Shown piece by piece: positions 12,383-52,059 of a stretch of DNA of 64,000 bases; the first letter of the stretch is position 1, and every line of letters begins with the position of its first letter. This DNA comes from Thiogranum longum (GTDB lineage: Bacteria; Pseudomonadota; Gammaproteobacteria; DSM-19610), in assembly GCF_004339085.1 (NCBI RefSeq), contig NZ_SMFX01000001.1, positions 1,434,242-1,498,241 of the forward strand. The letters are read 5' to 3'. The notes beneath the pieces were generated by a model. That model worked only from the letters and a program-made list of their open reading frames with translations. It ran no database searches and was not told where the DNA came from. The position numbers were made by a program, and so were the translations under genes.

Positions 12383-12885
12383 TCCTCACCTGTGTTCATT
12401 GAGTTTCCATTTCCTGCGTAATGCGTATTCAGGCTCGCAGGGTGCGACAAAACTGGAGCGCCCCAGAGTGGTGCGGCGCGACCGCACGGCTTCAACCGAG
12501 CATGATTCGTGCCAGTGCCGGGGGAGGGTTTTCCTGTATTTCGGGTCGGTATGATACGGGCATTGGGGGCGTCAGTCATCGGGTCAATGCAGGGTGCAGT
12601 TGCCGGCTTTCCCGCGTCCGGTCAGCCACGGGTCTTCATCTCCTGGCCTGCCTCGGCATCTCCTGTGGCGTCCGGCCCGGTGGTTGGGAGCAAAAGTTTC
12701 CGGGACGGTGGTCGATATACTTCAGGATGTGCGTAACACTATCGTGTATCGATCAATTCAAGACTGTTTATCGCACTGATAATGCATTACAATGCGCTGC
12801 GAAAAATGAAGGTTCGTGAGCGTACAGATAACACTTAAACGGATTTCAGCGGTGCCCGGAACCAGGGCGTAACTAGGGTGAGACT
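12383..12885. other. 503-base divergent intergenic region
   Basis: It separates the minus-strand dehydrogenase and the plus-strand FG-GAP/cadherin gene. A 132-codon open frame (12421-12819) has no ribosome site and no protein resemblance, so I do not call it. The 120 bases next to the large gene turn AT-rich and contain TACAAT at 12788-12793, a possible -10 without a good -35. AGGGTGA lies just before the ATG at 12886. Confidence 0.4.
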
Positions 12886-35759: not shown

Positions 35760-36464
35760 TCAGCCCAGGCAGAGGTCTTCCAGCTTCTCGCTATCCAGTA
35801 CCTGGATGCTGCCGCGACTTAGCTTGATATGCCCGGATCGCTCCAGTTCTTTCAGCAGGCGACTGACAACTTCACGCGTTGTGCCCAACTCGTTGGCGAT
35901 GGTCTGATGCGTGCAACGGATTCTGCTGTCTGGTTCCTGGGTGGAGAGTTTACGGATAAGCTGGACAAGGCGAAGGTCCAGGTGCCGGAAACTGACCTGG
36001 GCAGTCAGTTGCACCACGTCTGTGATGCAGTGTGCCATGGAGGTCATCAGGTAGCTTCTGAACCCTTTGGATTCAGCCAGCAAGCGTTCGAAATATTCCG
36101 GGGGCATAGCCAGCAGGCGGACGTCCTGTTCAGCCACGGCCTGGGCACATTGATTCGAGCGTAGTAACAGACGGGTCAGCGTCAGGACACAAACCTGTCC
36201 GCTACAGACGCGGTACAGGCTGATTTCGCGACCATTTTCACAGGCCTCATAGACCTTGACAACGCCCTGCAAAACAATAACGAACTTGTCAGCAGAACTG
36301 CCACATTCAACCAGTTTTGTGCCGGCCGGACAGCTGATAACTTCTGAAACGCTCAGAGCTTCGCGCCAAACCTCGCCATCAATGGCTGCAAACCCGGTGA
36401 GTTCGCATTGCAGCGTGGCAGGTTTGTTTCGGTTTGGAAATGCGCACCCCTCAGTTTCGCGCAT
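35760..36464 (-). CDS. Crp/Fnr-family transcription regulator (first of two)
   Basis: A 234-aa regulator. The N-terminal cyclic-nucleotide-like beta-roll spans about residues 25-135 (ISCPAGTKLVECGSSADKFVIVLQGVVKVY). The C-terminal winged helix has HQTIANELGTTREVVSRLLKELE. GGGAGG lies before the ATG at 36464. The four-cysteine layout of FNR is not present, so an oxygen-sensing iron-sulfur cluster is unlikely. Its recognition helix (TTREVVSRLLKELE) is of the Dnr/FLP type. A paralogue is encoded 257 bases further on the same strand. The ligand is unknown. Confidence 0.85.
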   Translation of the reverse strand: MRETEGCAFPNRNKPATLQCELTGFAAIDGEVWREALSVSEVISCPAGTKLVECGSSADKFVIVLQGVVKVYEACENGREISLYRVCSGQVCVLTLTRLLLRSNQCAQAVAEQDVRLLAMPPEYFERLLAESKGFRSYLMTSMAHCITDVVQLTAQVSFRHLDLRLVQLIRKLSTQEPDSRIRCTHQTIANELGTTREVVSRLLKELERSGHIKLSRGSIQVLDSEKLEDLCLG

Positions 36465-36720
36465 CGGCTTCCCTCCCAATTTTATTTATTGATTTTTATG
36501 TTTATGGTGCAGGAAAGCTATGCCTGCACGCTTTTCGCATTGTCGCTCTATAAAGAGCGTGACGCAATATAGTCACTCTTCATTCCACATGGAAGTAAAT
36601 AGCCTTGAAAAAACTTCAAACTGCTGCGTACAGCATAGCGATGCTTCTGGTGCGATTTTTATTCGACTTAACTTTGAATAGAGGGTAAAAAAAATGTGGT
36701 CGAGTGATACCTGATGTATT

Positions 36721-37395
36721 TCAGGCAGCGTTGCCCTGGGTCATGTTTTTTGCCAGTTTTCTGAGGGAGTTAGCATCCTGCAAGGTGATCTTTCTACGCT
36801 GCATACGAATACAGTCAGCGTGTTCCAGTTTTTTCAGCAAGCGGCTTACTACAACACGCGTAGTGCCAAGTTCTTTTGCTATGTCTTCGTGGGTAAAATT
36901 AATGGACTGCTCGGGGTTGTCTGCCAGTTTTTCGTGCAGCAGGCCGGCCAGGCGAACATCAAGAGGCTCGAACATAAGCTTGTTTGCAGTACAAACTGAT
37001 TCATACAGGCAGTCGGCGAAGGTGTGGAGAAAAGCGCCGAATATTTCCGGTGTCTCAATAAGGGTCGTTTTGAGGGCATCGCCGGACACGAAATGAACCT
37101 CCATCGGGCTTTCGGCTATCGCTGTGGCAGGGTACACGCTGTTTTTCAGTACGGCAGACAGGGAAATCGGGCACATCTCACCGGCCTTGAGTCGATAGAG
37201 CGTCACTTGTCGTCCGGCTTCACTGGAGGCGTAGATTCTGGCATTTCCGGAGATGATGACTGGCAGGCCAGCGCAGGGTTCACCGCTGTTAAACAACATG
37301 TCGCCAGTGTCGTACCCGGATACAGGTGTATTTTCAATGAGTTTCACAACAGGTGGAAGCGACAGTAACTGCCTGTTATCGGCTGGTGGTGCCAT
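36721..37395 (-). CDS. Crp/Fnr-family transcription regulator (second)
   Basis: A 224-aa paralogue of the preceding regulator, with a beta-roll and a winged helix (HEDIAKELGTTRVVVSRLLKKLE). The ATG at 37395 is chosen because GGAG lies 9 bases upstream; another ATG two codons earlier is only 3 bases from it. Like its neighbour it lacks FNR cluster cysteines. It diverges from the multicopper oxidase operon 456 bases away, so that operon is the natural target candidate. Ligand and targets are not known. Confidence 0.85.
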   Translation of the reverse strand: MAPPADNRQLLSLPPVVKLIENTPVSGYDTGDMLFNSGEPCAGLPVIISGNARIYASSEAGRQVTLYRLKAGEMCPISLSAVLKNSVYPATAIAESPMEVHFVSGDALKTTLIETPEIFGAFLHTFADCLYESVCTANKLMFEPLDVRLAGLLHEKLADNPEQSINFTHEDIAKELGTTRVVVSRLLKKLEHADCIRMQRRKITLQDANSLRKLAKNMTQGNAA

Positions 37396-37422
37396 GCACA
37401 TATTCTCCGGCAAGAAATTTAG

Positions 37423-37850: not shown

Positions 37851-39545
37851 ATGGCAAAAAGAAGAGACGTACTCAAGGCGGGTGCAGTGGCTGTGGCCAG
37901 TACACCGGCAATCTTTGGAGGAGCTGCCATACCACGTGCGGCACAGGCGCAACTTTGCCGGCCGGAGGGTATCCGCAGTCCGCTGACAGAGCCGGACAGT
38001 CCGCCGGTTAGGCACTATCACGAACCACTTTACATAACGCCTGCCATGTCGGAAGTAGATCCGGCCACATTGTCGCCGCCACCTGATCCGAATCGTCACC
38101 AGCGATATGATGAATTCCAGCCCGTCAAGCATTACGTTCAGCGCATGACGGAAGGTTTATGGAATTACCATGAAGACCTGTCGGTACTCAACCCGCTCGG
38201 ATTTGGTTCCCTGGCCTGGATGTTCAATGGCGCTACACCCGGTGAGACACTGGTAGCGCGTTACGGCGAGCCTGTTTTCATTCGCCGTTATAACGATTTG
38301 CCAATGACAGAAGATGCCTTGATTCCCTTTGGTCTTCCCTATACCACCTTGCACCTTCACAACGCGCATACGGCGTCAGAGAGTGATGGCTGGCCAGGCG
38401 ATTTTGTCGGACCCGGCGAGTACTGGGACCACCACCATGCCATGATGTATGCGCGAAACGACCCGAATGAAGCACTGGCAAGTCTCTGGTACCACGACCA
38501 CATGCTTGATTTTACGGCCACCAACGTCTACGCGGGCCTGTCAGCGATGGCGACCTTCTATGATGATATTGATTCCGGAGACGAAAACGATCCCAACCCG
38601 GATGCATTGCGTTTGCCTGGTACGTACGGCAAGTATGATGTTTCCATCATCCTGCACGATGTGCGTTTTGATCAGTTTGGTAATCCTGCCTATAACGTGT
38701 TTGATACAGACGGCCACCTGGGTGACCTGATCACGGTCAACCGCAAGGTTTCACCTTACCTTGAAGTCGAACCGCGCAAATACCGTTTCCGCATCTACGA
38801 TGGTGGTCCTTCACGCTTCTATGAGCTGGGACTGGCGGATGAATCGGAGATGTTTGTGATTTGTAACGACGGTAATTTGCTGGAGGAACCGGTCAGTGTC
38901 ACCAGCATCGTGCTTGGCCCGGCAAACCGCCATGATGTCATTATCGATTTCTCGCGTTACAGCGTCGGGCAATCTGTCAACCTGCTCAATATTATGGAGC
39001 AGGTCAATGGCCAGGGCCCTACCGGACGGCGTCTTGAAGGCCCGGATCGCATGCCGGTCATGCAGTTCCGTATCAAGCCACTGGAAGGACCTGATAACAG
39101 CCGCATCCCGGATTTCATGCGCAAGCTGCCTCACGTCAACCTTAACGAAGTGGTGGCTGAGCGTGAGTGGGTATTTGATCACGATATGGGCTTGTGGACC
39201 ATCAACCATGAATTCATGGATCCGACCAAGGTTTCTGCGGCACCCCGGCAGGGTACGGCTGAAATCTGGACATTCCGTAATGCGGGCACCTCATGGGCGC
39301 ACCCGGTGCACGTACACTTTGAAGAATTCCAGGTGCTGGAATGGAATGGCAGGCCGCCAACCGGAGTACTCCGCTCGCGTAAGGATGTCGCAACCCTTGG
39401 ACCTGGCGATTCCGCCCGCGTGTTCTATCGTTTCGACGACTTCCTCGGTCGCTATCCGATTCACTGTCACAACAACGTGCACGAAGACAATGCCATGATG
39501 GCGCGTTGGGACATTATCCCGAATGGTGGTGATGATGACGACTGA
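37851..39545 (+). CDS. Tat-exported multicopper oxidase
   Basis: A 564-aa laccase-like oxidase. A twin-arginine signal (KRRDVLKAGAV) precedes a cleavage site near AQA. All copper sites are visible: LHLHNAH (about 167), WYHDH (about 214), HPVHVHFE (about 484) and HCHNNVHEDNAMM (about 538, type 1 site with Cys and Met ligands). It oxidises a metal or phenolic substrate with reduction of oxygen to water in the periplasm. CueO-like copper(I), CotA-like or manganese(II) oxidation are all possible. It opens a three-gene operon; GGAGG lies 6 bases before the ATG. Confidence 0.9.
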   Translation: MAKRRDVLKAGAVAVASTPAIFGGAAIPRAAQAQLCRPEGIRSPLTEPDSPPVRHYHEPLYITPAMSEVDPATLSPPPDPNRHQRYDEFQPVKHYVQRMTEGLWNYHEDLSVLNPLGFGSLAWMFNGATPGETLVARYGEPVFIRRYNDLPMTEDALIPFGLPYTTLHLHNAHTASESDGWPGDFVGPGEYWDHHHAMMYARNDPNEALASLWYHDHMLDFTATNVYAGLSAMATFYDDIDSGDENDPNPDALRLPGTYGKYDVSIILHDVRFDQFGNPAYNVFDTDGHLGDLITVNRKVSPYLEVEPRKYRFRIYDGGPSRFYELGLADESEMFVICNDGNLLEEPVSVTSIVLGPANRHDVIIDFSRYSVGQSVNLLNIMEQVNGQGPTGRRLEGPDRMPVMQFRIKPLEGPDNSRIPDFMRKLPHVNLNEVVAEREWVFDHDMGLWTINHEFMDPTKVSAAPRQGTAEIWTFRNAGTSWAHPVHVHFEEFQVLEWNGRPPTGVLRSRKDVATLGPGDSARVFYRFDDFLGRYPIHCHNNVHEDNAMMARWDIIPNGGDDDD

Positions 39546-39597
39546 ATCGATGCGTGGCACCAGTGAATCAGATTAACGGAGCTTGAAGGAGTCTACG

Positions 39598-40230
39598 ATG
39601 AAAAAGACTACAAGAAGAACATTTCTGGCCAGTGCTGCTGCAGCCATTCCGGCGGTAGCAACAGCCGCAGTCGCGCCTGGTGCAGTTAAAGACAACCCGG
39701 CATTCAAGACCTGTCCCCGTGCCAGGGGTGGCAAGAATGCAAGTCGTTTCCCACAGGTGATCGTCCAGGACCAGCACAAGGAGAAAGCCTGGTTCTATGA
39801 GGACCTGATTGCGGACAAGGTTGTACTGGTCAGCTTCACCTCGGTGAAAGGCGAAAAGTATTACCCATTACTCAGTAACCTGGTCAAAGTGCACGAAATG
39901 ATCGAGGATCGAATCGGCAAGGAAGTGCAGATGTACACCGTAACCACCGATCCTTACCACGATACACCGGAAGACCTCAAGGCGCTGGCTGAAAAGCATG
40001 GTGCCAGGTGGCGTTTCCTGACAGGCGCTCCTGAAGATATAAGGGAGATCCTGGCATCCTTCAATGCACGCGGCAGCCTGTATGCACTGTCCTGGATCGG
40101 TAACGAAAAGACCGGTCGATGGATGAACAAGCCAAGTCGGCTGCAACCCCTGTTTATTACTGAAGCGGTGGGGCGTCTCAGTACCGGCAAGCAGCACAAG
40201 CCGTTCCTGGTGGATGACCACAGTGTCTGA
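39598..40230 (+). CDS. Tat-exported SCO1/SenC-like protein without the copper cysteines
   Basis: A 210-aa thioredoxin-fold protein. The signal has a twin-arginine motif (TTRRTFLAS). The SCO fold is visible in VVLVSFTSVKGEKYYP, YTVTTDPYHDTPEDLKAL and WRFLTG. In SCO proteins the first motif holds CxxxC; here V83 and K87 stand at these places, so the classical copper site is missing. The only mature cysteine is C39, near the N-terminus. AAGGAG precedes the ATG at 39598. It lies between the oxidase and the 683-aa protein and probably serves the same system, perhaps structurally. Confidence 0.75.
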   Translation: MKKTTRRTFLASAAAAIPAVATAAVAPGAVKDNPAFKTCPRARGGKNASRFPQVIVQDQHKEKAWFYEDLIADKVVLVSFTSVKGEKYYPLLSNLVKVHEMIEDRIGKEVQMYTVTTDPYHDTPEDLKALAEKHGARWRFLTGAPEDIREILASFNARGSLYALSWIGNEKTGRWMNKPSRLQPLFITEAVGRLSTGKQHKPFLVDDHSV

Positions 40231-40333
40231 TAACCGGCCGGACTTACGGGAAACTGATCTGGTGATACAACACAATATCCCTTGTGGTGCGCATCAACAT
40301 GCTATGCACGGCCGGGGAGGAGGTGAAAAATCA

Positions 40334-42385
40334 ATGAAGCATAAAAGACCACTTGTAAAAGCGCGCGTGGCCGCGACACTGGCTTTGCTTGCCGGCGGAA
40401 TGTGCGTGGCGAGCACTGCCTCGGCGGAGTGCGAATTTAAATTTGATCCCTTCCTGACCAAGGCAACGGGATCGCCGAATCCGGTCATGAAATGGTTGGG
40501 CCATCCCTGTGCACAACCGGAGGCCGGGGTGTCAGAGCGCACTGAGTCTGCAGATGGTGTTACAACAATCATTAACACACCGCCGGGCCAGCACCCGTCA
40601 GTGGATCCGTTTGCCAATCCGCCGGGCAGTAACTTCCTCATGACGGTATATGAAAACCTGAGGGACTACGAAAACCGGGAAATGCCCAATACCCTGCCGT
40701 CGACGCCGGAGAACCCCTATAACCTGCACGATGGGCCGGTACTGACCGCGGAGATCGACAAGAGAAGTCCGGATGATGATCTCGATATGGTAATCGACAG
40801 GATCGAGGCGGCCGCGAAAAAAGGCAGAAAGAAGATCAATAAGGACCTGGTCAAATTTGCCATCGATATCCTCGAAGGTAACCCGATCGATCGAGCCTAC
40901 AGCGGATTGCCCATGCTGCATTACCAGGGGCCGGTCAATGATAGCCCGGTGATTCCCGAGTATGATGCCGATGGCAACCTGGTCGGTGGTAATGTCGATG
41001 TTAATATTTTTTACTGGGGCCAGCACATCGAAGCTGACGCGATGTTCATCAATCCTGCTGCGGTACAGGAAGTACCCTGGACGGTTACTTACAATGTCCA
41101 CATCCTGAACAACGGGATGGAAGACTTCTCGCCCATGGGCTCACACGTCAACCGGTTCATCAATCCGAAGGGTGTGGAAGTCACTGGACCGCCGCATGCA
41201 TCGATGGACCAGACATTCTTCCCGATGCTCGATGAAGGCACCAGGTACACTGTCAAGATCAAGCAGACCAAAGGCAAGTACTTCAACCTGATCTATCATT
41301 GGGGCTGGCGTATTCACCCGCCACGTGTACAGGCCATCGAAAACTCGCTCAAGAAAGCGGGGCCGGATGGCTGGAACTATGTGCAATGGGAAAAGTCGGC
41401 GTTCTGTGAAGGTGGTGCAAATGATCCCGACTGTGATCCAGTGGGTAACCAGGCCGACAAGGATTATGCCATTGCCCAGATTGGCGAATTGTCACCGGCC
41501 AAGCGCATGTGGACTCTTTTCAGGTCCATGCTTGAGGATGATGACGATCATGGAGACATGAAAAAGAAAGGCAAGAAACACAAGAAAGACAAAAAACACA
41601 AGAAACACAAGAAAGACAAGAAAGACAAGAAACTCAAGAAGGGTGATCTGGCACACATCGCGACCGATCTGCGAGCGGCCTATTACGACTGGACCGACCG
41701 CACCAAACTGCCGGCCGGTGTAGAAGCGGATCCGGATGCAACAATGACCATGCTGTATGTCAATAATACCTTCTATGGCTCTCGCCAGGGTCTGCAAGGT
41801 GAAGGTAGTGGTCAGGGTCCGGCAAGCTGGAAAGGTGTTGCGAACGGGAGTGTTCATGACTGGAATATCCGCCCGTATAACTTCAAGGTGACTGTGCTTA
41901 ATGCTGATCACTTCCAGCACTTCTATCGCAATGTTGATTTCGGTGGCACACGTGGTTGGGAAAACCAGTTCCAGTTTACCGATCCCACTACGCTTGTCGG
42001 TCCACACCCGGAAATACCGCCAGGGCATGAGGCTAATTATCCGCCTTTCAGTAACAGCCCCATCATTTCCGGTTACGACAATGTGTTCCCCATCAACCGC
42101 AGTGGCACGGAGGAGTTCCTTCAGCCGACACCGCGTAATCCCGATGACCCGGTCAATGGCCTTCCGCAACTGGGCTCGGGTTGCTTCTTTACCTTCGGTC
42201 GCAACTATTTGTGGCCAAATGCGGGCGCATTATCGGGGCTGATTCCGGTACCGCCGGTTGGGGCTGACGGTACACCGGGTATGCATAAAGTGGATATAAC
42301 AATGAACTATGAGCCCAGTCGCCGGCTGAAGCTTTACCAGTTCGATCCACTACACCATGGTGTGGCAATATACTCCTTGCATTAG
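40334..42385 (+). CDS. Unrecognised 683-aa secreted protein with Lys/His-rich insert
   Basis: A perfect AGGAGGTGA lies 7 bases before the ATG. A Sec signal ends near TASA (about residue 34). Two predicted beta-rich parts, with many Trp, His and Asn residues (WGQHIEADAMF, YHWGWRIHPPR, VLNADHFQHFY), flank an insert at residues 408-437 made of KKHKKDK-type repeats preceded by DDDDHGD. I do not recognise the family. Its place after a multicopper oxidase and a SCO-like protein, and its many His residues, suggest metal binding or an interaction with DNA, polyphosphate or acidic polymer. Function is not assigned. Confidence 0.8.
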   Translation: MKHKRPLVKARVAATLALLAGGMCVASTASAECEFKFDPFLTKATGSPNPVMKWLGHPCAQPEAGVSERTESADGVTTIINTPPGQHPSVDPFANPPGSNFLMTVYENLRDYENREMPNTLPSTPENPYNLHDGPVLTAEIDKRSPDDDLDMVIDRIEAAAKKGRKKINKDLVKFAIDILEGNPIDRAYSGLPMLHYQGPVNDSPVIPEYDADGNLVGGNVDVNIFYWGQHIEADAMFINPAAVQEVPWTVTYNVHILNNGMEDFSPMGSHVNRFINPKGVEVTGPPHASMDQTFFPMLDEGTRYTVKIKQTKGKYFNLIYHWGWRIHPPRVQAIENSLKKAGPDGWNYVQWEKSAFCEGGANDPDCDPVGNQADKDYAIAQIGELSPAKRMWTLFRSMLEDDDDHGDMKKKGKKHKKDKKHKKHKKDKKDKKLKKGDLAHIATDLRAAYYDWTDRTKLPAGVEADPDATMTMLYVNNTFYGSRQGLQGEGSGQGPASWKGVANGSVHDWNIRPYNFKVTVLNADHFQHFYRNVDFGGTRGWENQFQFTDPTTLVGPHPEIPPGHEANYPPFSNSPIISGYDNVFPINRSGTEEFLQPTPRNPDDPVNGLPQLGSGCFFTFGRNYLWPNAGALSGLIPVPPVGADGTPGMHKVDITMNYEPSRRLKLYQFDPLHHGVAIYSLH

Positions 42386-42486: not shown

Positions 42487-43485
42487 GTGTTTGACCGAGT
42501 GTCACGTTTTCGAACAGAAGGTGTTGGGGATTGCCGGTATGGCCTGGAGAAAAGCAGGCCAAGGGTAGTATCGAGCCGGAATAACCTGCCATTTGCTCTT
42601 CAGATCATCCTGACAATCTCATTGTGTCAGTACGGCAGTTGCTACGCGCTATCAAAAACACCTTTCCTTGAAGCACATGAGTGCGATGCAACAGCATCGA
42701 AGCTTTCCGGGACGGTGCCAGACCGTCCTTATGAAATCGTGGCGCGTTATCCTCATGATCAGGACGCATTTACCCAGGGACTGACATTTTACCGCGGTAA
42801 TTTATACGAGAGCACGGGCAAATACCGTCAGTCCAGCCTGCGTTTGCTGGATCTTGAAACAGGAAACGTGCTTAAGGAGCAACGGCTCAGTCATGATCTG
42901 TTTGGTGAGGGGCTGACTGTGCTGGGCCAGCAGCTGGTACAGCTGACCTGGAAATCGGGCAAGGCTTTCCTGTACACACCCGACGAACTCCGGGAGACAG
43001 GTGGATTCAATATTAATGGTGAAGGCTGGGGCGCCACCGGATACCGTAATCAACTGGTTATCAGCGATGGGTCTGCCTGGCTTCGTTTTCTTGATGCCAG
43101 GGACTATCATCAACTGAAAAGATTGCAAGTAAAATTCCAGGGAAACCCCGTCAAGGGATTAAACGAGCTCGAGACAGTAGATGGCCTGATATATGCCAAT
43201 ATATATCCGGGTGACTGCATAGCGCAGATTGATCCGCGATCGGGGCAGGTTGTCGGCTGGATCAATCTTGAAGGGTTAATGCCCTTGTCTGCACGCAGCC
43301 ACAGTTCAGCGGTGACTAATGGTATCGCCTACAACGCTGAAACGGGTGAATTGTTTGTAACGGGGAAGCTATGGCCCTATATTTACAAGTTGAAGTTGCT
43401 GAGAAGAAAAGCCCTTCCCGACATACGGCCGCATCACCGGCAAGCCCCGGATGATGCTGGTGACATGATAACAAACGGGGTGTAA
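42487..43485 (+). CDS. Glutaminyl-peptide cyclotransferase (plant/bacterial type)
   Basis: A 332-aa protein of the five-bladed propeller glutamine cyclotransferase family, which turns N-terminal Gln into pyroglutamate. Family signs are HDQDAFTQGLTF, LYESTGKYRQSSLR, FGEGLT and LNELETVDGLIYANIYPGD. A hydrophobic export segment (ALQIILTISLCQYGS) begins about 36 residues in, so the GTG at 42487 gives an unusually long n-region; the true start is uncertain. It follows the oxidase operon terminator and is close upstream of the efflux pair (6 bases), so it probably shares their transcript. Confidence 0.8.
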   Translation: MFDRVSRFRTEGVGDCRYGLEKSRPRVVSSRNNLPFALQIILTISLCQYGSCYALSKTPFLEAHECDATASKLSGTVPDRPYEIVARYPHDQDAFTQGLTFYRGNLYESTGKYRQSSLRLLDLETGNVLKEQRLSHDLFGEGLTVLGQQLVQLTWKSGKAFLYTPDELRETGGFNINGEGWGATGYRNQLVISDGSAWLRFLDARDYHQLKRLQVKFQGNPVKGLNELETVDGLIYANIYPGDCIAQIDPRSGQVVGWINLEGLMPLSARSHSSAVTNGIAYNAETGELFVTGKLWPYIYKLKLLRRKALPDIRPHHRQAPDDAGDMITNGV

Positions 43486-43491
43486 CAGAAA

Positions 43492-44799
43492 ATGAAAAAA
43501 ATACTGGCTATTACCGCGCTGGCAGCCGGATTTCTGGGTTACCTGGCAGGTCAGTTTTCTACGGAAAACCACTCGACGGCCGGGCTGGAGGAAGTTGTGG
43601 CTTTACCCGCCGGCGCTTCGCACTATGTTTGCCCTATGCATGCCGAAATTATCAGTAATGTCCCGGGTGGCAGTTGTCCGGTTTGTGGTATGGATCTGGT
43701 TGAAAAGGAGACCGGGGAGTCAACGGACAAGGTAGAAGGAATGCCGGTTGTAACCATCAATCCTTCGGTTGTACATAATCTGGGTGTACGCACCGCCCGG
43801 GTCAGGTTGGGGGACCTTCAGCGAAGTATCGAGACTATCGGCAAGATTACGCGCGTGGATCCCATGGCACGTCGTACCATTACGCCACCCATTCGTGGTG
43901 AGCTGGTGGCAATTGCCGACAAGCAGGACGGTGACTTTGTTACCGAAGGTGAATTGCTGTTCAGCGTCAAGTCGGACGAACTGTTTGAGCATGAGAAAGC
44001 TTTTCAGGATGCCTATCAGTCAGGGGATCGTGCTACAGCCAATGCCATGATTCCGCAATTGAGCAAGATGGGGCTGACGCCGGAACAGATATCACAACTA
44101 CAGAATGGTGCAATGCCGCACATGCCGGTCGATGTATTTGCATTCGAAGATGGTTATATCTATACCCGAAGGGGACGCGTCGGGGAAAAAGTGCATACCG
44201 GATTTACACTATTCAATGTAGGTGGAAATTATCGTGTGATCGAAGTGACCGCAGAAATATTCGAGCGTCAGTGGGGCTGGGTTGCGCAAGGTCAACAAGC
44301 ACGTATGACAGTGCGAGGTCTGCCTGGTACGGTATTCACGGGTGAGGTGGTGCGAGTTGAGCCACCGGTCGGGTATACGACGCGATCACTGGAAGTCGCA
44401 CTGAAATTCAGGTCCGAAAATCCCGAACTCTCGCAGAGCATGTTCGCACATGTCAGTATTGCAGGTCAGCCACGCAAGCATGTGTTACTGGTACCTCTGG
44501 ACAGCGTGATACGCACAGGGCAGGGCGACCGCGTCGTACGTGTACAGGGTAAAAACCGCTTTCAGCCGGTCGAAGTTACCACCGGAGAGGACGCCAATGG
44601 ACTGATCGAAATACGTTCCGGACTCAAGGAGGGCGACCAGGTAGTGTCTTCGGGGCAGTTTCTGATTGACTCGGAAAGCAGCCTGCTGGCCGGTTTCCGT
44701 CGTTTAACAACGCCAGGAGCCACCAGACCGGAACAACAGCCATCACCCCGGCACGCCGATTCACATCGTACAACCTATACACCGGCATCCCGTCTCTAG
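43492..44799 (+). CDS. cusB: CusB-type RND periplasmic adaptor with N-terminal heavy-metal domain
   Basis: A 435-aa membrane-fusion protein. One N-terminal helix is followed by a small metal-binding domain, HYVCPMH (44-50) and CPVCGM (62-67), as in many copper-efflux adaptors. The barrel-sandwich and beta-barrel domains follow (RGELVAIADKQDGDFV, GRVGEKVHTGFTLFNV). It links the inner-membrane pump to an outer-membrane channel for Cu(I)/Ag(I) or related ions. It is encoded 13 bases before the pump. No CusC-like outer-membrane gene is in the window. Confidence 0.9.
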   Translation: MKKILAITALAAGFLGYLAGQFSTENHSTAGLEEVVALPAGASHYVCPMHAEIISNVPGGSCPVCGMDLVEKETGESTDKVEGMPVVTINPSVVHNLGVRTARVRLGDLQRSIETIGKITRVDPMARRTITPPIRGELVAIADKQDGDFVTEGELLFSVKSDELFEHEKAFQDAYQSGDRATANAMIPQLSKMGLTPEQISQLQNGAMPHMPVDVFAFEDGYIYTRRGRVGEKVHTGFTLFNVGGNYRVIEVTAEIFERQWGWVAQGQQARMTVRGLPGTVFTGEVVRVEPPVGYTTRSLEVALKFRSENPELSQSMFAHVSIAGQPRKHVLLVPLDSVIRTGQGDRVVRVQGKNRFQPVEVTTGEDANGLIEIRSGLKEGDQVVSSGQFLIDSESSLLAGFRRLTTPGATRPEQQPSPRHADSHRTTYTPASRL

Positions 44800-44812: not shown

Positions 44813-47800
44813 GTGATAGCCGCACTGATACGCTGGTCTGTACGTAATCGCCTGCTTGTACTGCTGGCAGCAGCCCTGCTCAGTGCATGGGGGGTCTACT
44901 CAGTACGCACTATACCGCTGGATGCCATACCGGATCTCTCCGATGTACAGGTCATTATCCGTACCAGCTATTCAGGGCAGGCGCCGCAGGTTGTGGAAGA
45001 CCAGATTACCTATCCACTATCTACGGCAATGCTGTCGGTTCCTGGCGCAGTAGCTGTACGTGGCTATTCATTCTTTGGCGACTCCTACGTCTATGTAATT
45101 TTTTCGGATGATACTGACCTGTACTGGGCAAGGTCACGTGTACTCGAATATCTCAGTCAGGTTACCGACCAGTTGCCACGGGGTGCACAACCCCGACTGG
45201 GTCCGGATGCCACCGGCGTAGGCTGGATCTATCAGTATGCGCTGCTGGATCGTACCGGGAAACACGATTTGTCCGAGCTTCGCTCCCTGCAGGACTGGTT
45301 CCTGAAATATGAACTTCAGACGGTGCCTGGTGTTTCCGAAGTCGCGGCGATAGGCGGGATGGTCAAGCAGTACCAGGTAGTCATCGATCCTGACCGTTTG
45401 CGTGGCTACTATCTGACCCTGGCGAATGTAAAGCGCGCGATAGAGGAATCCAACGCCGAAATCAGTGGCTCCTCGCTGGAAATCGCAGAAGCTGAATACA
45501 TGATTCGCTTCAAGGGGTATGTCAAAAACAAGGAAGACATCGGCGTAACAAGCGTGCCCACCATACGTCGTCGTTTGTCGATTTCATCTGTATTGCTCGA
45601 CGACGTTGTACACAGTATACGTATCGGGCCAGCCATGCGACGCGGCGTGGCTGACCTGAATGGCGAGGGTGAAGTCGTAGGTGGCATCATTGTGATGCGG
45701 TCGGGTGAAAATGCACTGACTACGATCAAAGCTGTCAAGGAAAAACTGGACCAGCTTGAGCGTAGCCTGCCAGATGGCGTGGAACTGGTTGAGACGTACG
45801 ATCGCTCCGCACTGATCAATGGCGCAGTGAGCAATCTCGGTCAACGGCTGGTCGAGGAATTTTTGGTGGTGGTCGTGGTATGCGCGCTGTTTTTGCTGCA
45901 CTTGCGTTCATCACTGGTCATCCTGATCAGCCTGCCGGTAGGCATATTGACGGCGTTTGTCATCATGCACCTGCAAGGTATTAACGCTAATATTATGTCG
46001 CTGGGGGGGATCGCTATTGCTATTGGCGCAATGGTGGACGCCACCATTGTCATGATAGAAAACGTGCATAAACATCTGGAGCGTGCAGAGGCACGTGGTA
46101 TCGGCCGGTTACAGGCCATACAGGATGCAGCGGTCGAAGTCGGTTCCCCGTTGTTCTTCTCGCTATTGATCATCACGCTGAGTTTCCTGCCAGTGTTCAC
46201 CCTTGAGGCGCAGGAGGCACGCCTTTTCTCACCGCTGGCCTATACCAAGACTTATGCCATGGCTGCAGCTGCGGGCCTGTCGATTACGCTGGTACCCGCA
46301 CTGATGGCCTTCCTGATTCGTGGCAAGGTGCGGCCAGAGGAATACAACCCGATCAACCGTGGCCTGATCGCGGCCTATCGTCCCTTGATAAGGTGGGCGC
46401 TGGCCCGTCCCTGGTTGACGATCGGGTTGGCCTGCCTGCTGGTCGTCACCATGCTGTGGCCGTTGAACCGGCTGGGCACCGAGTTCATGCCGGAAATGGA
46501 TGAAGGCGATATTCTCTATATGCCAACCACCTTGCCAGGCATCTCGGTAGGCAAAGCCCGTGAACTGTTACAGCAGACCGATCGCCTGATCCGTACGCTA
46601 CCTGAAGTCGAAAGCGTGTTCGGCAAGGTCGGCCGAGCCGAAACTGCGACTGATCCGGCGCCTTTGACCATGCTGGAAACAGTCATACGACTGAAACCAG
46701 AAGAACAGTGGCGCCCGGGTATGAGCATGGACAAGATTCGTGCTGAACTCGATGCTCGTGTACAGGTGCCCAGTCTGCATAATGCCTGGTTGATGCCGAT
46801 CCGGACGCGTATTGATATGCAATCAACGGGCATCAACACGCCGGTCGGCATCAAGATTGCCGGCCCTGACCTGGCGGGTATCCAGTCGCTCGGGGAACAG
46901 GTCGAAAATGTGCTGCTCAAGGTTCCAGGTACACGAACTGTGCTGTCCGACCGGGCTGCCGGTGCACGATACATCGACGTTGATATCGATCGACAGGCTG
47001 CGGGGCATTATGGGTTAAGTATTGCCGAGATCGAGGAAGCTGCAAATATTGCCGTAGCCGGTCAGAATGTTACTTACACGGTAGAAGGAAGAGAGCGCTA
47101 CCCGGTAAATCTCCGTTATCCCCGGGTATGGCGCGACTCGATCACCAAGCTCAAGGAGCTGCCGCTGGTGGTAACCGAAGATACCCAGATTCAGCTTCAG
47201 GATCTGGCCGAGATCCGGATTACGGATGGACCGCCGCTGATAAAAAGCGAGAATGGGCGCATAAACGGCTGGGTTTATATCACCATCGATGGACGCGATA
47301 TCGGTTCCTATGTTGCGGCCGCTCGTCAGGCGCTGCAGCAACAGCTTGATCTTCCAGCGGGTTACACCCTTAACTGGGTTGGCCAGTACCAGTATTTGCA
47401 ACGCGCTGCACAACGCCTTTCCTATATTATTCCGTTGACACTATTCATTATCTTTATTCTTCTCTACCTGAGCTTTCGAACCTTGAGTGAAGCCCTCATG
47501 GTTATGCTTTCGGTACCGCTTGCACTGGTAGGTGGTGTCTGGTTGTTGTGGTTGCTGGATTTTCATCTCTCGGTTGCAGTGGCGGTCGGTTTTATCGCGT
47601 TGGCAGGTGTGGCCGCAGAATTCGGCGTTGTGATGCTGGTGTATCTTCGTGAGGCCATAAGCCGGAATCAGCCGATCAACGAAGCGGAATTACGTAGTGC
47701 GGTCATCGAAGGCGCAGTTTTACGGGTAAGACCCAAGGCGATGACGGCTGCAGTCATTATTGCAGGACTGATGCCTATTATGCTGGGTGGCGGGGCTGGT

Positions 47801-47950
47801 TCCGAGGTTATGCAAAGAATTGCTGCACCAATGATCGGTGGCATGGTGACCGCGCCACTGGTATCCATGTTACTGCTGCCTGTGATGTACTTCCTGTGGT
47901 ATCGAAACAAACTGACTGGCAAGCCTGTACGGCAGGCTGCTGATGCGTGA
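44813..47950 (+). CDS. cusA: CusA/CzcA-type heavy-metal efflux RND pump
   Basis: A 1045-aa HME-RND transporter, normal length, with 12 membrane segments in two halves and large periplasmic loops. GGIAIAIGAMVDATIVMIEN is the proton-relay helix of heavy-metal pumps. It expels Cu(I)/Ag(I) or other heavy-metal ions from the periplasm or cytoplasm using proton flow. The start is GTG, 13 bases after cusB. The neighbouring oxidase and metal-binding adaptor favour copper, but zinc/cobalt pumps look similar and the substrate is not certain. Confidence 0.9.
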   Translation: MIAALIRWSVRNRLLVLLAAALLSAWGVYSVRTIPLDAIPDLSDVQVIIRTSYSGQAPQVVEDQITYPLSTAMLSVPGAVAVRGYSFFGDSYVYVIFSDDTDLYWARSRVLEYLSQVTDQLPRGAQPRLGPDATGVGWIYQYALLDRTGKHDLSELRSLQDWFLKYELQTVPGVSEVAAIGGMVKQYQVVIDPDRLRGYYLTLANVKRAIEESNAEISGSSLEIAEAEYMIRFKGYVKNKEDIGVTSVPTIRRRLSISSVLLDDVVHSIRIGPAMRRGVADLNGEGEVVGGIIVMRSGENALTTIKAVKEKLDQLERSLPDGVELVETYDRSALINGAVSNLGQRLVEEFLVVVVVCALFLLHLRSSLVILISLPVGILTAFVIMHLQGINANIMSLGGIAIAIGAMVDATIVMIENVHKHLERAEARGIGRLQAIQDAAVEVGSPLFFSLLIITLSFLPVFTLEAQEARLFSPLAYTKTYAMAAAAGLSITLVPALMAFLIRGKVRPEEYNPINRGLIAAYRPLIRWALARPWLTIGLACLLVVTMLWPLNRLGTEFMPEMDEGDILYMPTTLPGISVGKARELLQQTDRLIRTLPEVESVFGKVGRAETATDPAPLTMLETVIRLKPEEQWRPGMSMDKIRAELDARVQVPSLHNAWLMPIRTRIDMQSTGINTPVGIKIAGPDLAGIQSLGEQVENVLLKVPGTRTVLSDRAAGARYIDVDIDRQAAGHYGLSIAEIEEAANIAVAGQNVTYTVEGRERYPVNLRYPRVWRDSITKLKELPLVVTEDTQIQLQDLAEIRITDGPPLIKSENGRINGWVYITIDGRDIGSYVAAARQALQQQLDLPAGYTLNWVGQYQYLQRAAQRLSYIIPLTLFIIFILLYLSFRTLSEALMVMLSVPLALVGGVWLLWLLDFHLSVAVAVGFIALAGVAAEFGVVMLVYLREAISRNQPINEAELRSAVIEGAVLRVRPKAMTAAVIIAGLMPIMLGGGAGSEVMQRIAAPMIGGMVTAPLVSMLLLPVMYFLWYRNKLTGKPVRQAADA

Positions 47951-47956
47951 TCGAAA

Positions 47957-50413
47957 TTGACGACTGTCACGCACAATCCCTCTGTTGAAGACCGATCCGG
48001 TGAGGTGACTCATCAAGACCACTTTGCGGTATTTGCCAGCCTTTTTGTTTTGTCAGGCATCAGCGGTCTGGTCTATCAGGTTGTCTGGGCCCGAAAGCTG
48101 CAGATTGCATTCGGTGTAAATCTGTATGCCATAGCCGCCGTGCTTGCCGCCTATTTTCTGGGCATGGCGCTGGGGTCCTGGCTGGGTGGAAAAGTCAGCG
48201 ATCGCTCCAGGCGTCCACTCATCATATATGCCTTGCTGGAAATCGGCATTGGTGTAACTGCGCTTGTCGTTACTCCCTTGATCGATCAACTCGATATTGT
48301 GCTTCAGCCGTTCAACGAAATGTTAAACAGTAATTTCTACTTGCTTCAGGGGGCTCGCTTTATCCTGACGCTGGGCGTTCTGATTGTCCCGACAACGCTG
48401 CTCGGCGCCACGGTGCCCTTCATGAACCGTGGAGTGATGGCCAGTGACAGCCATATAGGTAAACGCATGGCGACGCTGTATGCCGCCAATACGCTTGGAG
48501 CTGTCGCTGGAGTGCTGGTTTCCGGCTTCTATCTTATTGAGCGGATAGGTCTGATGCATACCGCTCAACTCGCTGCAGCGCTGTCTGTTGCCGTTGGATT
48601 ACTGGCTATCCGGGTCAACTGGCGGGCCGGTCCTGTAAACGTCCGCTCAGCCGCCGTACCGGAGACCGGCTCTGTTGAAACCCGGCAGGCCTCACGTATT
48701 GTGTTGCCGGTGATGGGATTGTCCGGCGCACTTGGTCTTTCGCTGGAAGTCCTGTGGACGCGTTTACTGATCCAGGGTATCGGTTCAACGGCGTACGTTT
48801 TCTCGATTGTGCTCGCCCTTTTTCTTGCCGGTATCGCAATTGGCAGCTATATCGTACGCAGCCGTGTCGATCACTGGAAGGATCTGTACTCGGCGCTTGC
48901 GCTGACGCAAGGTCTGGCAGCCTTGTTTACACTTGCCGGGGTACCCATCCTGAACCGGGTCATGCCGGCGATCGTTTCCAGTGTCATGGATGCGCTGGGC
49001 TACAGCGTTGAACAGGCGTTCTTTCAGACGTGGGCACTCTGGGCGGCAGGTGCGCTACTGCCTGCAACCATCGCACTGGGTGCAAGCCTGCCAATTGCGG
49101 CCCGCCTGATTACCTCAAGCCGCCACGCCGTCGGCAAGAACATGGGCAGATTGTACGCCATCAATACCTACGGGGGTGTTGTAGGGTCACTGTGTACAGG
49201 CTTCGTGTTATTGCCCATGGCAGGCGTGTACGGGTCGATAACGCTCATATCGGCACTATATCTGCTTGTCGCCGCTGTCCTTGTATACCAGTCTGACGCT
49301 GGCCTGATGCGGGGTCGTCGCCTGGCCATAATACCAATTGCGCTTTCTCTCCTTGTCTGGTTCTTTCTTCCACCCGGGCTGGTACGCGACCGGGTTACAA
49401 ATTACACAACCGGTGACATCCTGGCCTATGAGGAGGATTACTACGGATCCATCCTGGTTACGGAAGAAGGCGATGGCGACAAGTTCAAGCGACTCCTTGT
49501 CAATGGGACTTCGTATTCAGGTACAGGTGACTACGCCGTACGTTATATGCGTCTACAGGGTCATCTTCCTGTATTTATGTCACAAAAAGCGGTTAAAAAT
49601 GTGCTTGTCATCTGTCTTGGTGTCGGGTTGACGGCAGGTGCGATCACGACACACCCGGATACAGCGCTGACGGTAGTTGAATTGTCACGCACTATCGTCG
49701 ATTTGAGTGTTTTCTTCGCAGATGTCAATGAAGAAGTCCATCTTAACCCTGACGTGACTCTGGTAACTGATGACGGACGTAATTACCTCGTACGTAACCC
49801 TGGACAGCGTTTTGACGTTATAACACTGGAACCGCCACCACCCGTACTGGCTGGTATGGCCAATCTTTATAGCCTGGATTTTTACGAGCTGGCAAAAAGC
49901 CGTATGACAGACGAGGGTGTTATCGTCCAGTGGATACCTTTGCACACGCAAAGCAATACTGACACACGCATGCTGATTGCGACCTTTTTCAAGGCGTTCC
50001 CGAACTCCAGTCTGTGGTGGACGGAGAGTGGCGAAGCACTGATCCTCGGAAAAATGCGCGATACTCCCCTGGTGCCGGGGCATATACAGAACCTGCTATC
50101 GAACAAAAAGGTCGCACGCAGCCTTGGAGATATCGATATCTTTACGCCTGCACAACTGGCGGCACATTTTCTTGTCGATCAGAATGGGCTGGAAAGACTG
50201 GTTAGTGGCAGTGCGGTTATGACTGATGACTTACCGGTAATAGAATACCGTGTTCCAGTGTTCAATGATGATTACACGCCTTTACTGAAAGAAATGATTC
50301 AGCTTCGACCAGACAGTCATTCCATTGCGAAACTTCTGGGGATATCACCATCTGAAGCAGATGCAATAGATGAAGCCTGGCTGAATCTGAAAAACAGCTG
50401 GTATGAGAAGTAA
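47957..50413 (+). CDS. MFS-like transporter fused to a spermidine-synthase-like domain
   Basis: An 818-aa fusion. About 13 hydrophobic segments form the first 475 residues (GLVYQVVWARKLQIAFG is the family signature). The C-terminal 330 residues resemble spermidine synthase (SpeE). In this domain the glycine loop reads LGVGLTAG and the usual catalytic aspartate motif after the beta strand reads VITLEPPPP, so aminopropyl transfer is doubtful. The TTG start at 47957 is 6 bases after cusA; a GTG further on is possible. The role is unknown, perhaps polyamine- or metallophore-linked. Confidence 0.75.
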   Translation: MTTVTHNPSVEDRSGEVTHQDHFAVFASLFVLSGISGLVYQVVWARKLQIAFGVNLYAIAAVLAAYFLGMALGSWLGGKVSDRSRRPLIIYALLEIGIGVTALVVTPLIDQLDIVLQPFNEMLNSNFYLLQGARFILTLGVLIVPTTLLGATVPFMNRGVMASDSHIGKRMATLYAANTLGAVAGVLVSGFYLIERIGLMHTAQLAAALSVAVGLLAIRVNWRAGPVNVRSAAVPETGSVETRQASRIVLPVMGLSGALGLSLEVLWTRLLIQGIGSTAYVFSIVLALFLAGIAIGSYIVRSRVDHWKDLYSALALTQGLAALFTLAGVPILNRVMPAIVSSVMDALGYSVEQAFFQTWALWAAGALLPATIALGASLPIAARLITSSRHAVGKNMGRLYAINTYGGVVGSLCTGFVLLPMAGVYGSITLISALYLLVAAVLVYQSDAGLMRGRRLAIIPIALSLLVWFFLPPGLVRDRVTNYTTGDILAYEEDYYGSILVTEEGDGDKFKRLLVNGTSYSGTGDYAVRYMRLQGHLPVFMSQKAVKNVLVICLGVGLTAGAITTHPDTALTVVELSRTIVDLSVFFADVNEEVHLNPDVTLVTDDGRNYLVRNPGQRFDVITLEPPPPVLAGMANLYSLDFYELAKSRMTDEGVIVQWIPLHTQSNTDTRMLIATFFKAFPNSSLWWTESGEALILGKMRDTPLVPGHIQNLLSNKKVARSLGDIDIFTPAQLAAHFLVDQNGLERLVSGSAVMTDDLPVIEYRVPVFNDDYTPLLKEMIQLRPDSHSIAKLLGISPSEADAIDEAWLNLKNSWYEK

Positions 50414-50464
50414 CACAATGCCGGCACAGCCTGTTGCCGGATACAAAGTTTGCAGGAGGAAATG

Positions 50465-51133
50465 ATGAAGAACACGCTATCCTGGATGCTCTTGACACTG
50501 ATACTTCTCGGTTTCGGGCAGCTGTCTATGGCCGGAGCCACTGAAGACAGGTTCAGGGAAGGTTCGCAATACCAACGCATCGACCCTCCGGCACCGCTGA
50601 CTGACCAAACCGACAAGGTTGAGGTCGTGGAAATGTTTTTTTATGCCTGTCCTCACTGCTACCAACTGGAGCCCAGAATGACCCGCTGGCTTGCGGAAAA
50701 ACCTTATGTCAACTTTCAGCGGATGCCCGCCATCATCGGCCCGAGCTGGGCGGATCAGGCCCGTGCTTTCTATATGATCAGGGCACTGGGTGATTTTGAC
50801 CGAATGCACGCGGCACTTTTCAAGGCGATACATGAAGATGGAAAACAGATCTACAACGAATACAGTGTGGTCGAGTTTTTTGCCAGTCAGGGGGTGGATC
50901 GAAAAAAGGCACTCGACCTTTATCTGTCCCCGGAAATTGCTGCCAGCGTCAACCAGGCGCGAATCAAGACGGTCAAGTATGGATTGCGCGGTGTTCCTGC
51001 GGTGATTGTTAACGGAAAATACAAGACTGCGCCGTTCTTTGTACATAACCAGGACGAGATGATTGAGGTTGTGGACAGTCTGGTAGAGAAAGAACGGCAC
51101 AAGATGTCTACTGCAAACGTGCAGGAAAAATAA
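50465..51133 (+). CDS. dsbA: DsbA-family thiol:disulfide interchange protein
   Basis: A 222-aa periplasmic oxidase with a signal peptide ending near LSMA (about 23). The thioredoxin fold has active site CPHC (62-65), identical to E. coli DsbA, and the cis-proline loop RGVPAVIVNG. It introduces disulfide bonds into exported proteins. The ATG at 50465 is chosen because AGGAGG lies 6 bases upstream; the preceding ATG is too close. It begins a DsbA, SNase-like, cytochrome c5 series and may support folding of the nearby Cys-rich proteins. Confidence 0.9.
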   Translation: MKNTLSWMLLTLILLGFGQLSMAGATEDRFREGSQYQRIDPPAPLTDQTDKVEVVEMFFYACPHCYQLEPRMTRWLAEKPYVNFQRMPAIIGPSWADQARAFYMIRALGDFDRMHAALFKAIHEDGKQIYNEYSVVEFFASQGVDRKKALDLYLSPEIAASVNQARIKTVKYGLRGVPAVIVNGKYKTAPFFVHNQDEMIEVVDSLVEKERHKMSTANVQEK

Positions 51134-51165
51134 TTTAACAGGTTTAAAGAGGAGAAGTGCTGGTG

Positions 51166-51636
51166 ATGAAAACAACAGGTTTATGGCGTCGTACAGGGTG
51201 GGCAATGGTTTGCGTACTGGCACTGTCGGTTTCGATACAGGCAATAGCTGCCACATTTATACCTTACCCGGGAAAGCGTCCAGTGACCCTGGTCAGGCTG
51301 GATGCGCCCGATCGTGTGGTTGTAACATTCAACACGGATGCGACCGGATTCTTTCGCACGCTGGTCATCAAATTACCTGGCATAGTCGTTGCCCGTGATA
51401 CCCCGCAGTCTGATGACTGCGAGCGAGAGGCTGCGCAAAAGGCCTTGCCGTTTGCACAGGGCTTCCTCGAGAGCGCAAAAGAGATCTATGTAGAGGACAT
51501 GCGCATGGAAAACAGTGCAGATGATGAGGCGGTTTCACTCATACTGACAGATAAGGGCAGTCTGTCCTCGGCACTGATAAAAGAAGGTCTTGCACGCCCG
51601 GCCAGCATCGACCCGGATACACCCTGGTGCAAGTGA
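51166..51636 (+). CDS. SNase-like (thermonuclease-fold) secreted protein
   Basis: A 156-aa protein with a signal peptide ending near AIAA. The body resembles staphylococcal nuclease-like domains: VIKLPGIVVARDTPQ near residue 68 and GSLSSALIKEGLARP at the end. The usual RL-GI-PE pattern is altered (Lys instead of Arg, PQ instead of PE), so nuclease activity is doubtful. AGGAG precedes either a GTG at 51163 or this ATG. It probably acts in the periplasm. It shares a transcript with dsbA and the following cytochrome. Confidence 0.6.
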   Translation: MKTTGLWRRTGWAMVCVLALSVSIQAIAATFIPYPGKRPVTLVRLDAPDRVVVTFNTDATGFFRTLVIKLPGIVVARDTPQSDDCEREAAQKALPFAQGFLESAKEIYVEDMRMENSADDEAVSLILTDKGSLSSALIKEGLARPASIDPDTPWCK

Positions 51637-51651
51637 AAGGAGGTTACAGAG

Positions 51652-52059
51652 ATGAAGACATTAGTGACGCTATATTCTGCTATTCTGCTGGCAGGGATTG
51701 CTGTCGGCCCTTGTGGTGCCGTAGAGGGCACCCAGGGGTATCGTGACGAGATCAACCGCCCGCCGGAACCCTGGAAAGGTCCGCCACGCAGCGGTGAACA
51801 GGTTTATGCACAATATTGCGGTGCCTGCCATGCCAGGACAACGCAAGGCGCACCCATGCCGGATGATGATATCGAGTGGGGTATGCGCGCCCGGCAGGGT
51901 CTGAAGGTGCTGATGGAGCATACCATCGGCGGCTACAGGCAGCAGCTGATGCCACCCCGTGGGGGCTGCGAAAATTGCAGTGATGCGGAGTTGAAAGCTG
52001 CGGTCCTGTATATTCTGAAGCAGAGCGGCATCGAGCCGGATGCGAAGGGTAAGCTTTAG
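51652..52059 (+). CDS. Cytochrome c5-like monoheme cytochrome
   Basis: A 135-aa c-type cytochrome. A signal peptide ends near CGAV (about residue 24). The heme site CGACH is at about residue 60 and the sixth-ligand Met lies in LMPPRGGCENCSD; the CENC pair is the extra disulfide of cytochrome c5. It carries single electrons in the periplasm. AGGAGG lies 8 bases before the ATG. Its stop overlaps the convergent monooxygenase stop by 4 bases. It may receive electrons from or give them to the oxidase system, but no link is proven. Confidence 0.9.
   Translation: MKTLVTLYSAILLAGIAVGPCGAVEGTQGYRDEINRPPEPWKGPPRSGEQVYAQYCGACHARTTQGAPMPDDDIEWGMRARQGLKVLMEHTIGGYRQQLMPPRGGCENCSDAELKAAVLYILKQSGIEPDAKGKL

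Follow-up and report, generated by a model that had tools for sequence, protein, structure and literature searches.

In the 64,000-nt stretch of Thiogranum longum DNA analysed here (the window, whose positions serve as coordinates), three consecutive genes appear to encode one extracytoplasmic oxidase module. They specify a three-domain multicopper oxidase (MCO), an SCO-like protein in which the copper motif has been lost and P683, a secreted protein of 683 amino acids from an undescribed family. The reading that we favour, at a probability of about one half, is that P683 binds copper and serves the MCO as a dedicated partner.

The first-pass annotation of the window had described the three genes as strung together behind good ribosome sites, and this is confirmed by the open reading frames (ORFs) and by the Shine-Dalgarno sequence ahead of each. 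The one preceding the MCO gene, GGAGGGA, is also present in relatives; a search for a common promoter motif 5' of this gene gave nothing convincing beyond the ribosome site. The grouping also stands when other genomes are compared. The order MCO, SCO, P683 is kept in Gammaproteobacteria, Acidobacteriota and Planctomycetota wherever upstream DNA suffices, with a single exception (L049, see below); some loci end too close to P683 for gene order to be judged. At one locus (L040:3890-13218) the complete unit occurs twice in tandem. The intergenic gaps are short, and in L055 the SCO and P683 genes overlap by 4 nt. Distance matrices correlate between MCO and SCO (r 0.97), MCO and P683 (0.82) and SCO and P683 (0.86), partly through shared ancestry, and the trees of the three proteins contain the same main groups. 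From these correlations and agreeing trees, the three genes seem to move together and to evolve as one. Among the set of relatives, every MCO with a score above 1000 bits has P683 as its neighbour, and the next best scores, 440 bits or less, belong to MCOs without it. The fixed gene order across phyla, the correlated distances, the tandem duplication and the short or overlapping gaps together argue for one module.

P683 begins with a Sec-like signal, as read from its sequence. It has no Pfam match and no usable NCBIfam match, and its alignments, used as profiles against PDB sequences, gave no match; its description as an unrecognised secreted protein therefore holds. Two candidate families were set aside. 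The type III secretion system protein CigR (NCBIfam, E 0.053) gives a match over the Lys tract, and DUF5121 (Pfam, best value 0.0018) is matched weakly by a minority of members that does not include the window P683. The Lys/His-rich character by which the protein had been defined did not survive alignment. Alignment A1 shows the tract (residues ~410-436) as an insertion that is hypervariable: it is missing or quite different in relatives with 65-83% identity. It was rejected as a functional core because it is not conserved. About 70 other columns are invariant across phyla.

The family was found in 9 of 56 close-to-distant relatives and at 38 loci in one public genome set. Its gammaproteobacterial hosts include Thiohalobacter, Thiogranum, Nitrosomonas, Methylovulum, Methylobacter and Lysobacterales, among others; beyond that class it occurs in Acidobacteriota, in Planctomycetota and in one Rhodospirillaceae fragment. 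The distribution is patchy (10 of 125 Nitrosomonas-family genomes; 5 of 369 genomes sampled in the class), and with 2 of 399 Burkholderiales genomes P683 is no usual partner in that order. P683 is a conserved secreted family that has neither name nor model in Pfam or NCBIfam and is tied to MCOs in several phyla. Its hosts range from Acidobacteriota to relatives of ammonia oxidisers, methanotrophs and sulfur oxidisers.

The proposal that P683 binds copper comes from its predicted structure. AlphaFold2 models of the window protein (mean predicted local distance difference test score, pLDDT, 75.7; predicted template modelling score, pTM, 0.77) and of a compact Acidobacterial homologue from L055 (pLDDT 85.0, pTM 0.88) both show two domains rich in strands, separated by a helical stretch. 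The domains are predicted to be cupredoxin-like: top structural matches are mostly copper proteins, at Z 6-7 over 84-120 residues. Domain 2 aligns with nitrosocyanin in VIA-align at Z 6.8 (window model) and 7.3 (L055 model), over 84 residues at 2.3-2.4 A. One higher row for the L055 model, the ArnB paralogue VWA2 (Z 7.5, 72 residues), was set aside since it appears to fit helices only. The agreement of two models on cupredoxin-like domains whose best matches are mostly copper proteins supports the partner reading.

Cupredoxins carry a His ligand and a Cys...His pair of ligands at defined strand and loop places. In domain 2 of P683, the first of these corresponds to His529, which lies behind an N-x-D turn where a strand begins. 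Judged from the predicted strands, the position of the type 1 blue-copper Cys is held by Asp671; the protein is without that Cys. His529, Asp671, His674 and His675 are invariant in 35 aligned P683 members (alignment A2), and Asp671 and His675 are kept even in distant relatives (alignment A8). This suggests that domain 2 may have a Cys-free copper site of the His/Asp/His type, with Asp replacing Cys.

The oxidase itself is of a familiar kind. The Tat-exported (twin-arginine translocation) MCO of the first-pass annotation was borne out by Pfam matches to PF07731, PF07732 and PF00394 and by a Tat-like N-terminal RRDVLK. Its best PDB relatives are bilirubin oxidase and CotA. The full set of 12 copper ligands (types 1, 2 and 3) occurs in every one of the 23 aligned members, an invariance that supports the preferred reading. 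Trp482 is also invariant, two residues before a type 1 His as in bilirubin oxidase, and the C-terminal end reads HCHxxxHEDxxMM. The labile Cu(I) substrate site of CueO, which we take to be M355/D360/D439/M441, has no counterpart: T/S mostly stands in the column of D439 and an invariant Trp in that of M441; M355, D360 and the Met-rich insert are absent from the MCO in the alignment to CueO. On these columns the MCO is without a CueO-type Cu(I) substrate site, and the absence of that site together with the bilirubin oxidase-type Trp again favours an oxidase module. By its length (564 aa) and three-domain bilirubin oxidase/CotA architecture it is not of the MnxG type either; the MnxG-type profile NF041487 gave no match to it up to E 1. 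A separate CopA-like, Met-rich MCO is encoded elsewhere in the genome (L084:97-3299; contig C1, ~1251.5-1254.8 kb), where, by eye, its neighbours are a secreted cupredoxin and a CopB-like protein. The cell therefore probably has a classical copper-resistance oxidase available from another locus.

The SCO-like protein, as the first-pass annotation also held, has a Tat-type signal (RRTFLA) and is Cys-less, and belongs to the SCO1/SenC family by its Pfam match. In the window protein the C-x3-C columns are Gly and Tyr, and the distal His column is Leu. Alignment A3 places it among 25 members that have lost both Cys residues; the Cys pair and distal His are kept in four members, all from Acidobacteriota. 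A canonical SCO (CPDVCP) lies beside a PCuAC-like ORF elsewhere in the same genome (L083; C1:2067700-2069200), so that the Cys-less protein is an additional copy. This canonical SCO and the CopA-like MCO outside the locus are a further point for a separate oxidase module. A second SCO is found in the P683 clusters L068, L074, L075 and L054; in L054 and at the L059/L068 locus this second SCO has the Cys pair. The lineage offers an example of an SCO whose copper motif is gone and whose gene has been retained in place.

A second, separate linkage of P683-like proteins to an MCO lends weight to the partner reading. In two Nitrosomonas-family genomes, a distant P683 relative (~25% identity) is encoded directly 3' of an MCO of ~1568 aa (L072:1038-10106 and L073:1593-8559). 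For the L072 oxidase the only PDB match is MnxG (1.6e-107); a tyrosinase gene before the MCO was seen in L072 only. A search with the distant relative alone returned chance matches only. Links to manganese oxidase operons extend to other genes. In Pseudomonas putida GB-1, SCO genes belong to both the mnxG and the mcoA operon; a further gene of the mnxG operon specifies a substrate-binding protein that includes a cytochrome c domain (PMC11409713). In the P683 cluster L082 a cytochrome c protein also matches Peripla_BP_6, and cytochrome c proteins related to it are encoded in L068, L074 (at 11042-12784), L075 and L054; this likeness to the mnxG operon is one of gene content, not demonstrated homology. 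A beta-propeller protein, an SCO-like protein and a cytochrome c/periplasmic-binding protein are also found together at L067:5699-10148, similar to the accessory genes of the mnxG operon.

According to the preferred reading, the MCO would pass electrons from an extracytoplasmic reductant to O2; a phenolic, or a metal such as Mn(II), would be a likelier substrate than Cu(I). P683 could be a subunit that tunes the MCO active site or relays to it; alternatively, it could store copper and help to fill the enzyme. The SCO-like protein may be a folding or assembly factor, retained after the loss of its copper binding. Periplasmic copper and the thiol state around the module would be controlled by the linked CusBA pump, DsbA and cytochrome c (see below).

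Features of the MCO-SCO-P683 locus and of the genes that follow it
Feature	Position	Strand	Basis
MCO, three-domain, bilirubin oxidase/CotA-like, 564 aa, Tat-type signal	37851-39545	+	Pfam; PDB relatives; copper ligands
SCO-like protein, 210 aa, Tat-type signal, copper motif lost	39598-40230	+	PF02630 9.6e-11; motif columns
Degenerate SCO motif, G85-E-K-Y-Y89 instead of C-x3-C	39850-39864	+	alignment A3, column check
P683, secreted, 683 aa, undescribed family	40334-42385	+	no Pfam/NCBIfam/PDB-sequence match; 38 related loci
P683 predicted cupredoxin-like domain 1, residues ~130-340	40721-41353	+	AlphaFold2; CuA and rusticyanin matches, Z 6-7
Lys/His-rich tract of P683	41561-41641	+	alignment A1, not conserved
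P683 predicted cupredoxin-like domain 2, residues 467-683, nitrosocyanin-like	41732-42382	+	VIA-align
His529, cupredoxin N-terminal His-ligand position (N-x-D-x3-H), putative ligand	41918-41920	+	invariant in A2, nearly so in A8
Asp671-x2-His674-His675, loop between last two strands, putative ligands	42344-42358	+	invariant in A2
GC-rich hairpin 3' of P683	42408-42440	+	RNA folds of window and 18 related loci
Glutaminyl cyclase-like protein	42487-43485	+	PF05096 1.8e-83; same place in many relatives
CusB-like adaptor, N-terminal heavy-metal-binding domain	43492-44799	+	PF16576, PF19335; NF007303 below cut-off
CusA-type Cu(I)/Ag(I) pump of the RND (resistance-nodulation-division) class	44813-47950	+	TIGR00914; aligns to E. 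coli CusA
DsbA-like oxidoreductase	50450-51133	+	PF01323; synteny
Secreted protein, 159 aa, no Pfam match	51157-51636	+	synteny
Small cytochrome c	51652-52059	+	PF13442; synteny

The boundaries of the unit were placed only partly correctly at first. MCO, SCO and P683 do form one conserved unit, but in many relatives the conserved block runs on to a cytochrome c. A shared terminator had been proposed after P683; a strong hairpin is indeed there and its position is kept in many relatives, but in the window it is without a T-run and it is not among the calls of the terminator scan. In some relatives, such as L028, a T-rich tail follows it. The recurrence of this hairpin suggests that the three genes may form a unit of their own inside the longer cluster. 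What follows the unit at most gammaproteobacterial loci is a series of CusB, CusA, DsbA, the 159-aa protein and cytochrome c, headed, though not in every case, by glutaminyl cyclase; the window has all of these. CusA has 58% identity to E. coli CusA and keeps Met573/623/672 of that protein as M570/M620/M669, which makes the pumping of Cu(I)/Ag(I) its most likely function. Neither CusC nor CusF was found in the window. Acidobacterial and Methylobacter units have no adjoining CusBA. The window also has an extra gene between CusA and DsbA, for a fused major facilitator superfamily (MFS)/spermidine synthase-like protein of 818 aa (47957-50413); its homologue in L012 and L013 sits after the cytochrome c gene. 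Judged by eye only, the 159-aa protein may have a staphylococcal-nuclease-like fold. Upstream of the MCO gene and divergent from it are two Crp/Fnr-type regulators (35760-36479 and 36721-37413, minus strand), relatives of which occur near the unit in L011, L012, L015 and L068. An Rfam scan of the window gave no match, nor did a plasmid search.

Several observations weigh against a dedicated copper-binding partner. The structural Z of ~7 is middling and the Foldseek TM-scores are low, so that the cupredoxin fold of P683 is predicted and not proven. Of the putative ligands, His674 is replaced by Phe in distant relatives and His529 is not kept in L074 (alignment A8). The P683 homologue of L049 (L049:3775-5385) has no MCO or SCO match in the 3.7 kb upstream, and at L062 and L064-L066 related but more divergent MCOs are paired with an SCO in the absence of P683. 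Finally, the CusBA linkage could equally mean copper detoxification. The most specific form of the proposal, in which P683 founds a new family of large double cupredoxins with a Cys-free His/Asp/His site and is an obligate subunit of a two-component copper oxidase found in several phyla, is graded as unlikely. Were P683 a true Cys-free cupredoxin partner, the range of ways to build copper oxidases would be wider. The protein offers a testable route to the function of these laccase-like enzymes.

The partner role and the substrate are separate questions, and the readings therefore overlap with their rivals. The first-pass annotation had named metal oxidation, mineral deposition and copper handling as possible roles. 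A role in metal or copper chemistry is supported as likely, although a CueO-like part in copper handling is made less so by the missing Cu(I) substrate site and by the CopA-like oxidase encoded elsewhere. It has to be weighed nevertheless whether the locus is a copper-resistance island, with the MCO as a cuprous oxidase like CueO or CopA, P683 binding or buffering periplasmic copper and CusBA expelling Cu(I). This would fit the CusB with its metal-binding domain and the three-Met CusA that follow in most gammaproteobacterial loci, as well as the likeness of the predicted P683 fold to copper proteins. The substituted CueO columns, the CopA-like MCO with its CopB-like and cupredoxin neighbours, and the units without CusBA make it somewhat unlikely. 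Alternatively, the module could oxidise Mn(II), like operons built on MnxG, McoA or MofA. The SCO genes and the cytochrome c-domain substrate-binding protein of the P. putida operons point this way, as do the related cytochrome c/Peripla_BP_6 proteins of several P683 clusters, some with a second SCO, and the distant P683 relative beside an MnxG-like MCO. However, the window MCO is short and not MnxG-like, the likeness to those operons does not go beyond gene content, and we know of no Mn phenotype among the hosts; we consider this unlikely. As candidate substrates Cu(I) and Mn(II) are about equal, each with low odds, and phenolics are also possible.

A more modest view makes P683 and the SCO-like protein mere maturation factors of an ordinary laccase, serving copper insertion or folding like the caddie proteins of tyrosinases. 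The SCO family does include copper chaperones, both genes directly follow that of the MCO, and DsbA is nearby. Yet the number of P683 columns invariant across phyla exceeds what would be expected of a passive factor, and the SCO copper motif is lost in most lineages, which renders this view improbable.

Among known systems, bilirubin oxidase and CotA resemble the MCO in fold, in the full set of copper ligands and in the HCHxxxHEDxxMM end, and bilirubin oxidase also in the Trp next to the type 1 His. Unlike these types, the window enzyme, which is bacterial and Tat-exported, is closely linked to an SCO-like protein and P683. Of the solved folds, nitrosocyanin (a red cupredoxin) and the CuA and rusticyanin domains come nearest to the two domains of P683 as modelled; unlike them, P683 has a ligand loop without Cys, no sequence similarity to them was found and Z reaches only ~7. 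E. coli CueO and CusCFBA share the theme of an MCO plus a Cu(I) RND pump, whereas the window is without CusC and CusF, its MCO is without the Cu(I) site, and P683 and SCO are extra. The Bacillus Mnx complex has copper-binding accessory subunits, MnxE and MnxF, which are far smaller than P683 with its predicted double cupredoxin. That complex (MnxEFG) is referred to as a multimeric multicopper oxidase in PMC5622069. The Pseudomonas mnxG and mcoA operons likewise combine MCO and SCO genes, and some P683 clusters share an mnxG-operon-style protein with cytochrome c and substrate-binding domains (PMC11409713). They differ in that the MCO here is not of the MnxG type, P683 replaces the beta-propeller protein and CusBA is present in most gammaproteobacterial clusters. 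In agreement with the first-pass annotation, no described system with these three parts was found in the open-access literature, which is weak evidence of absence. Operons that join an MCO with accessory copper proteins are already on record; what appears to be new, not having been found described, is the P683 family and the three-part unit that it forms with the MCO and the SCO-like protein.

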